A stretch of DNA of 50,162 bases from Mucispirillum schaedleri (GTDB lineage: Bacteria > Chrysiogenota > Deferribacteres > Deferribacterales > Mucispirillaceae), in assembly GCA_949287985.1 (NCBI GenBank), contig CASEIN010000063.1, forward strand, positions 1 through 50,162. Direction: 5' to 3'. Numbering within the stretch: the stretch's first letter is position 1; each line of letters opens with the position of its first letter. Of this stretch, positions 39,804 to 41,245 are shown piece after piece. The notes under the pieces are model-generated. The model did not search any database, was not told the origin of the DNA, and saw nothing but the letters and a program-made list of their open reading frames with translations. The position numbers and the translations under genes were made by a program.

Positions 39804-40409
39804 TTATAAATCTTCCAGTTTAAATGTGTTATATCCTTCGTAATAATAGCTGTGGTCTATACCTTTCATATATACTGTCCTGTTTGAGATATCATCTGTT
39901 AAAGCCTGCTTTAATATATGCTTTATTTCAATATCTTTTACAGGGCTTCTTTCCATAGCAAGCAGATAATCATTTTTATTAACCATGCTCCAGTCAACTA
40001 CTTTTGCAAGTGAGCTTTTTAAAATACAGTCAAGCCATATTCTCATACTTCTACCATTACCTTCTCTAAAAGGGTGAGCAATATTCATTTCCACATATTT
40101 TTCTATTATTTCATCAAAATTAGACTGTGGCATATTATCAATATTTTTTAAAGACATATCTAAATACATAAGTGGAGCAAAGCGAAAATTACCTTTTGAA
40201 ATATTTACCGTTCGGATACTGCCAGCAAAATCATATATATCTTGGAATAAATACCTGTGTATTTCCTGTAATGACTTAAATGTTCCTGCTTCTAATTTAT
40301 CTAATATTTTATTATCAAAAAGCTCTAATGCTCGCTTTTTGCTAAGCCTTTCTTCTTCTCTTGCAAGTGCTGATGCATCTTGAATACCTAATTTATTTTC
40401 TAAAACCAT
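39804..40409 (-). CDS. Fic domain protein (class III-like AMP transferase)
   Basis: Fic proteins transfer AMP or related groups to target proteins. The active motif [12 protein letters not shown] lies at residues 112-123, with the [12 protein letters not shown] flap before it as in NmFic and HpFic. The inhibitory motif SYYYEG (Ser187-Glu191) is near the C-terminus, which fits class III, self-restrained Fic proteins that need no separate antitoxin. The ATG at 40409 has AAGG nearby; a longer frame would add a doubtful hydrophobic start. 201 residues. It lies between the cytochrome genes and the repeat array beside tRNA-Ser. Confidence 0.88.
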
Positions 40410-40681
40410 AACATACCTTATGTAATATAATAATATAGTATATATTGCTATATTTATAATTTCAAGTAGATAAATTAGGAATGAGAAAGCCATAAAAAAG
40501 TGATTTGAAAAGCTAGACTGCTCACTGTCGCAGACATAAAAAATACAGGACGTATTTTCTTTAGTAAGTATTTACGAGGTTTCCTCGTAAATATGTTGAT
40601 TTAAAAATTATAGGATGTAATTTTTAAATATAAATCAATAAGTTCTGCTTTTCTTCCCTATTCGGTCAGCGTTCGCTTAAG

Positions 40682-40757
40682 CTTCGAATCCCTTGTTTTA
40701 CAAACAAGAGAGGGATTCGCCTTTCAAATCAATTTGTCCTAAATTGATTTTTCAGGC
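40682..40757. repeat. 76-base repeat, copy 1
   Basis: Runs from CTTCGAATCCC to TTTTCAGGC. It contains two hairpins: CGAATCCC-TTGTTT...AAACAA...GGGATTCG, then AAATCAATTT-GTCCT-AAATTGATTT. It differs from copy 2 (206 bases further on) at one base. Confidence 0.9.
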
Positions 40758-40887
40758 CAGGCTTTTTTCTGTCGCAGACGTCCTGTCTGCTTATTCCAGC
40801 CACTTTTTCTGATTCCTCTTTATTCAGTCGGGAAAAAGTGTCCTCGTAAAATACACTCGCCTCGCTATTCGCTCGGCGAAAAAAGTC

Positions 40888-40963
40888 CTTCGAATCCCTT
40901 GTTTTACAAACAAGAGAGGGATTCGCCTTCCAAATCAATTTGTCCTAAATTGATTTTTCAGGC
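40888..40963. repeat. 76-base repeat, copy 2
   Basis: 75 of 76 bases equal copy 1 (CCTTCC for CCTTTC). The end runs on as CAGGCGTGCC (40959-40968), identical to ten bases of the tRNA-Ser anticodon region at 41141-41150. Confidence 0.9.
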
Positions 40964-41050
40964 GTGCCTACTCACTGTCGCAGACATCCTGTCTGCTTTT
41001 CCTCCCTACTCGGTCGGCGTTCGTAGAGCTTCGAATCCCTCTGTAAATAC

Positions 41051-41082
41051 AAAAAAAAGGACAGTCTACACTGTCCCTTTTT
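41051..41082 (-). terminator. Intrinsic terminator of tRNA-Ser
   Basis: On the minus strand GGACAGT and ACTGTCC form a stem with a four-base loop and are followed by eight T. Outside it GTAAATAC (41043-41050) and GTATTTAC (41084-41091) can extend the stem, and beyond those TTCGAATCCCTCT (41030-41042) can pair with the tRNA 3' end (41098-41110). Confidence 0.85.
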
Positions 41083-41090
41083 AGTATTTA

Positions 41091-41177
41091 CGGAAAGAGA
41101 GGGATTCGAACCCTCGGTGAGTTGCCCCACACACGCTTTCCAGGCGTGCCCCTTAAACCAGACTCGGACACCTTTCC
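41091..41177 (-). tRNA. tRNA-Ser (anticodon GGA)
   Basis: 87 bases on the minus strand, with acceptor arms GGAAAGG and TCTTTCC, discriminator G, a long variable arm typical of serine tRNAs, T arm GAGGGTTCGAATCCCTC, and anticodon loop CTGGAAA giving GGA (41139-41141). CCA is not encoded. Reads UCC and UCU. Confidence 0.96.
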
Positions 41178-41245
41178 ATTTATAATCACTTGAAAAATAA
41201 CTTCTACATAAATTTTTGATAAATTGCAAGAAAAATTTATACCTT

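Follow-up and report, generated by a model that had tools for sequence, protein, structure and literature searches.

A structured repeat family behind tRNA and tmRNA genes whose closing stem matches the T arm of the host gene

Results

We found a family of short non-coding repeat units that lie immediately downstream of tRNA and tmRNA genes, in the orientation of the host gene and often in tandem, and that are closed by a stem matching the T arm of that gene. A unit is 118-137 nt long (about 125), has no coding capacity, and consists of a closing stem P1, in which an inverted copy of the T-arm 3' half pairs with a direct one, a domain with the stems P2, P2a and P3, and a P4 hairpin. The family itself, its fold, its anchoring to tRNA or tmRNA genes and its host-matched stem are well supported. 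It is apparently undescribed, as checked against Rfam 15 and the open-access literature, and none of the known kinds that could be tested shares this combination of features.

The array behind tRNA-Ser(GGA)

The window, the whole 50,162-nucleotide stretch of Mucispirillum schaedleri DNA that was analysed, carries an array of these units behind tRNA-Ser(GGA) (Table 1). A sequence-only reading of this DNA had described an array with T-arm copies next to that gene, and this was borne out by ARAGORN, by the sequence and by our covariance model R1; because the gene is on the minus strand, "downstream" here means lower coordinates. The source of the P1 arms is the T-arm 3' half TTCGAATCCCTC of the tRNA, and a unit runs from the inverted half GGGATTCGAA through the core to the direct copy CGAATCCC. 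T-arm copies TTCGAATCCC/GGGATTCG are located at about 40683-40692, 40712-40719, 40889-40898, 40918-40925 and 41030-41042, and the terminator-like hairpin of the spacer is bordered by GTAAATAC/GTATTTAC.

Table 1. Features of the tRNA-Ser(GGA) array in the window
Feature	Position	Strand	Evidence
tRNA-Ser(GGA), host gene	41090-41178	minus	ARAGORN and Rfam RF00005
Spacer, intrinsic-terminator-like hairpin GGACAGT/ACTGTCC and T-run	41043-41091	minus	sequence
Unit 1, intact, P1/P2/P2a/P3/P4	40916-41041	minus	covariance model R1, 113 bits, E=6e-25
Unit 1 P1 5' strand, inverted copy of tRNA T-arm 3' half	41030-41042	minus	sequence
Unit 1 P1 3' strand, direct copy of T-arm 3' half	40915-40925	minus	sequence
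Unit 2, fold as unit 1, nested palindrome between P2a and P3	40710-40900	minus	model R1, 79 bits
Nested insertion in unit 2, about 65 bases	40795-40859	minus	copy of dispersed Mucispirillum palindrome
Unit 3, A/T-rich hairpins inserted in P3	40500-40694	minus	model R1, 23 bits, weak

The estimate of about three degenerate units was right in number, but one unit is intact, one carries a nested insertion and one is interrupted. Unit 1 has CCGACCGAGTAGGGAGG as P2a, GCAGAC-AGGAT-GTCTGC as P3 and AGGAC as P4 loop, and its P3 loop fits the ANGGAN / CAGGANG consensus. The insertion nested in unit 2 has arms CACTTTTTC/GAAAAAGTG around a P2a-like hairpin and is missing at the corresponding position in the congener at locus L180. 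For unit 3, the scoring was confined to the 5' part (40610-40694, R1) and the rest was read by eye against L180. Two 76-base stretches (40682-40757 and 40888-40963) do show a single mismatch as had been noted, but such a stretch straddles a unit border and is not the repeat core it was taken for. Similarly, the idea that the units are built from tRNA fragments holds for the closing arms and not for the cores, and a ten-base match to the anticodon region, GGCACGCCTG, sits at the P2/P4 strands of the family (...CCTG) and is most likely due to chance. The dense hairpins remarked on earlier are real, each unit having its own fold of P1, P2/P2a/P3 domain and P4 hairpin.

The gene directly beyond the array (39804-40493, minus strand) has a Fic-type motif. 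This flank is the same in L180 and different in other congeners, which indicates that the region varies between species. By eye, a tyrosine-integrase-like gene is found right behind tRNA-Ser at four Mucispirillum loci, and at two of them the integrase-like coding stretch comes directly after the array.

Dispersed palindromes of about 65 nt were observed away from tRNAs at six Mucispirillum loci. They are composed of GGCGAGCGTTTTTTGCGAGG, a P2a-like hairpin enclosed by a stem whose arms vary but match each other, and GGCTGG. Some are near-identical in many copies, and one palindrome is nested in unit 2 of the window array. At locus L007 (1366-1690, genome G000, contig C1), a cluster of these palindromes is found between near-exact direct repeats of more than 45 bp that hold a gene start (ATGTTTAAATTATCAACACTATCTCAAGC...), the gene start being therefore duplicated around the insert.

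Distribution of the family

The host genome of the window (2.44 Mb) has 33 tRNA genes, and arrays were found behind three of them, Ser-GGA, Ser-GCT and Leu-CAA, each copying its own T arm (TTCGAATCCCTCT for Ser and TTCAAGTCCCC for Leu). A 17-base core pattern, allowing up to 3 mismatches, gave 9 matches in this genome versus 0 for the reversed control pattern. These two results together indicate that the array did not arise by chance. The Ser-GGA locus is not invariant either, as the array is absent from three Mucispirillum genomes, and most of the other congeners seen have two or three units, some of them degenerate.

Of 79 Treponema genomes, 55 have the element according to model R1, which also recovered it in other Mucispirillum species and several other phyla. 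When one genome per species was searched for exact copies of the P2a motif, arrays laid out in the same way turned up in Treponema, other spirochaetes, Nitrospirota, Omnitrophota, Clostridia and others, along with chance matches in coding sequence. Pattern matches of the form 'caggcgagcttgcc...CCGACCGAGTAGGGAGGAaagttg...', mostly from Alphaproteobacteria, look like coding sequence and were set aside. The tmRNA gene (ssrA) serves as host in Mucispirillum, Treponema and others, and at five loci from the first two genera the arms match the tmRNA T arm. In the cultured Treponema sp. C6A8, arrays lie at the tmRNA gene and at Pro, Gln, Asn and Ala tRNAs. The array is thus no scar peculiar to tRNA-Ser but one locus of a structured family whose hosts include many tRNAs as well as tmRNA, across several phyla. 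Copy number per genome reaches about 13. A variant that shares the P2a motif and has inverted repeats resembling a T arm, GGAGTTCGAATC...GATTCGAACTCC, was seen at seven loci of G+C-rich MAGs labelled Deltaproteobacteria or Actinomycetota, with no tRNA detected nearby; this is possibly a dispersed branch of the family.

Fold and structured strand

The structure was drawn by hand on 19 units, and shuffles and slides of 1-3 columns were used as controls. Paired cells amounted to 79.8% versus 62.9% in shuffles, cells changed on both sides to 150 versus 59.9, and the covariation score was 0.469 versus 0.176; sliding the structure by 1-3 columns lowered the pairing to 36-43%. Tandem G·A pairs take the place of Watson-Crick pairs in some units: columns 49/62 and 50/61 alternate between CG/GC and GA/AG. 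Outside P1, 108 units have G·A in 588 cells versus T·C in 18, which indicates that folding concerns the tRNA-sense strand. G·U is rare and barely ahead of A·C in these units (98 versus 78), and consequently the folding molecule may be either RNA or single-stranded DNA. The P3 and P4 loops are conserved and the P2a loop varies among Treponema model matches; an invariant P2a of sequence CCGACCGAATAGGGAGG was rejected as partly an artefact of the search pattern.

Anchoring to tRNA and tmRNA genes

A sample of R1 matches that includes lower-scoring ones comprised 87 distinct Treponema units, and 84 of them follow a tRNA or tmRNA gene of the same strand at a distance of 16-489 nt (limit <700 nt), whereas chance proximity would be roughly 0.5% (33-50 tRNAs x 700 nt, two strands). 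The first unit is mostly 48-90 nt from the host gene. The arms of the 84 anchored units match their own gene over at least 8 nt, with a mean of 12.2 versus 5.7 for others, and in 49 tRNA-flanked P2a-motif matches the inverted arm agrees with the tail of its host tRNA over a mean of 11.1 nt, compared with 5.8 for other tRNAs. Because R1 contains T-arm sequence, a core-only model without P1 (R2) was built. With this model, 62 of 69 matches with flanks were behind tRNA or tmRNA, so the core does not occur at many sites unrelated to these genes; the other seven include two at contig ends, one in a tRNA-Thr array slightly past the 700 nt limit, and three whose arms resemble a T arm. The direct T-arm copy often carries the tRNA 3' end and terminator along, and at several loci both are repeated after the unit. 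A direct repeat of the tRNA 3' end, as in tRNA-targeting integrative elements, is present.

Comparison with known systems

Rfam, searched at gathering score and at E<=3, left the fold unmatched and returned only tRNA/tmRNA or weak chance matches, and we found no description of a tRNA-flanking repeat family in the open-access literature. The rtT repeats of E. coli tyrT are in tandem behind a tRNA gene and include tRNA 3'-end sequence. The likeness to tyrT that had been pointed out holds for this layout and for nothing beyond it, since our family has a branched fold and is found with many tRNAs and tmRNA in several phyla, and the Rfam RtT model did not match the units. The nearest described RNA is TwoAYGGAY (RF01731), which has two GGA-loop hairpins and tandem G·A pairs as well. 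However, its model gave no match to 12 element-bearing loci (cmscan to E=3), and neither a closing stem derived from a T arm nor a link to tRNA/tmRNA genes is known to us for TwoAYGGAY. From its loops, CsrA binding was proposed (PMC4333381). CsrB, CsrC and RsmX/Y/Z, reported from Gammaproteobacteria (PMC4333381), resemble the units in their repeated hairpins, CAGGA(U/A/C)G or ANGGAN loops and several sites per RNA, but these are stand-alone sRNA genes, whereas the family described here has short units behind tRNA genes, a conserved branched fold and putative CsrA binding.

Among mobile elements, REP/BIME with RAYT or IS200/IS605 transposases are similar in being short imperfect palindromes, some of them dispersed in the case of Mucispirillum, but the family is restricted in location to T arms. 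An origin of this kind was rejected because no Y1 (TnpA) transposase was found in seven carriers. The units (118-137 nt, noncoding) have no integrase inside them, unlike tRNA-targeting integrative elements with a tyrosine integrase. Phage or plasmid carriage was rejected, as no copies were found in viral contigs, phages or plasmids.

CsrA-type loops and csrA

Known RsmE/CsrA sites are ANGGAN hexaloops and CAGGA(U/A/C)G loops (PMC7652899), and the hairpin tips of the units look like such binding sites. The motif C-A(N)GGAN-G was found in the P3 loop of 80 and in the P4 loop of 58 of the 87 Treponema units, ACGAN being the main P4 variant. The csrA gene (PF02599) is present in the window genome and in 66 of 80 genomes searched, and nearly all carriers among Treponema and Deferribacterales have it; it was not found in several carriers from other phyla, and the majority of these have no such loops. 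In 34 genomes picked by the P2a motif alone, 13 had loops and csrA, 3 loops without csrA, 3 csrA without loops and 15 neither (Fisher p=3.9e-4, which is optimistic because the genomes are not phylogenetically independent). The three genomes with loops where csrA was not found come from metagenome assembly, possibly with parts missing; among the three with csrA and no loops, two are Nitrospirota and the third, L171, has a CAGGATG loop missed by the stem filter. In most lineages with csrA, the predicted P3 and P4 hairpins are capped by GGA loops of the CsrA type.

Discussion

Perhaps the units are a CsrA-binding decoy RNA made behind tRNA genes, and this is the explanation that we tentatively favour, in view of the fold and its strand, the anchoring, the host-matched arms, the loops and their association with csrA. 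Unit RNA would come from transcription passing the tRNA terminator and would then fold, each folded unit giving a CsrA dimer two hairpin sites; tandem units would multiply these sites, CsrA would be titrated as it is by CsrB/RsmZ, and the supply of decoy would be coupled to tRNA or tmRNA transcription. New loci might arise via recombination at the short conserved T-loop sequence. We propose that P1 fits the host tRNA because mismatched arms are fixed through the hairpin, a correction that we infer, or because pairing is selected for. A precedent for decoy action by a tRNA 3' trailer is 3'ETS-leuZ of E. coli, a regulatory RNA from a tRNA 3' flank (PMC6191717), although that RNA pairs with sRNAs such as RyhB and has no repeats, T-arm copies or CsrA sites. 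An RNA product from the array, as the sequence-only reading had suggested, is possible; the observation made in that reading is confirmed and its interpretation partly supported, the near confinement of the core to tRNA and tmRNA genes and the variation of the locus both being in its favour.

Several results do not sit easily with a decoy. A T-run was found in 57 of 61 Treponema first spacers, with units mostly starting 10-40 nt beyond it, while Nitrospirota loci such as L158 have no T-run between tRNA and unit. Upstream of the units there was no signal of an own promoter (38 TATAAT-like sites versus 71 in shuffles). Because the units are past the T-run and lack a promoter-like signal, a decoy RNA would need read-through. 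In addition, G·U pairs are scarce and hardly more frequent than A·C, the decoy alone does not explain why P1 must be a T arm, and csrA occurs together with loop-less units in two Nitrospirota genomes, while in three MAGs with loops csrA was not found.

The location of units beyond terminators without promoter signal also keeps close behind the decoy another possible explanation, to which we give a little over one chance in three: a mobile or self-amplifying, MITE-like DNA element that homes to T arms in tRNA/tmRNA genes. A putative recombinase would recognise its hairpins as single-stranded DNA, the tRNA 3' end would be duplicated so that the gene stays whole, and the arms would be rewritten for each target. 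The low G·U share, the duplicated tRNA 3' end and terminator, and the dispersed relatives and nested insertion in Mucispirillum would all be expected of such an element, yet a linked recombinase was not found, the Y1 transposase is absent from several carriers, and the viral contigs, phages and plasmids searched had no copies. The record of inheritance is divided. Treponema cores cluster by tRNA across species (37 label changes versus 47.8 in shuffles, 0/200 as low), with four tmRNA units forming a supported clade of the core tree, and from this clustering it follows that arrays persist in place, against what mobility would predict. On the other hand, arrays vary between sister species, congeners differ in presence or absence and in copy number, some supported forks of the core tree mix tRNAs, and cores 85-91% alike follow Pro-TGG, Met-CAT and Ala-TGC, each having arms that suit its own host tRNA. 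The units thus both persist and appear behind different tRNAs, with P1 fitted to the host. A ceiling of about 13 copies per genome is also low for a mobile element, which would moreover leave the CsrA-type loops and the csrA association unexplained.

A cis-acting structured RNA, in which the inverted T-arm strand has two alternative partners, the T arm of the tRNA itself and the distal copy, and so switches termination or 3' processing of the host gene, with CsrA binding as an input where present, seems unlikely. It would explain the host-matched P1 directly, and it agrees with the shared orientation, the closeness of the first unit and the window terminator, which between the T-arm half and its inverted half forms one long palindrome. 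However, most tRNAs have no element and sister species vary at the same tRNA, which would be odd for control of an essential gene, and such control would have no need of a repeated tRNA 3' end behind the unit. Finally, tRNA 3' ends are common integration sites and two loci have, by eye, an integrase-like coding stretch after the array, but functionless debris of repeated phage or island integration, palindromic by chance or template switching, is very improbable and largely refuted by the conserved fold, given the covariation and conserved loops across phyla, the constant tRNA-sense orientation and the absence from viral and phage collections.

Returning to the decoy RNA, a broader proposal joins it to movement: a new class of element that moves between tRNA/tmRNA genes of many phyla, rewrites its closing stem for each target T arm and serves as a CsrA-titrating RNA in spirochaetes and Deferribacterota. 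As a whole we consider this doubtful, at perhaps one chance in four. What has come to light is a conserved non-coding structure behind tRNA/tmRNA in most sampled Treponema genomes and several phyla, seemingly missed by Rfam, and its closing stem tracks the host tRNA, raising the question of whether copying, homing or selection is the mechanism. If it is mobile DNA, it would be a non-coding element homing to T arms. If the loops bind CsrA, it would provide a CsrA antagonist RNA, of a kind not previously known in spirochaetes and Deferribacterota, and would tie CsrA activity in these bacteria to tRNA gene expression.
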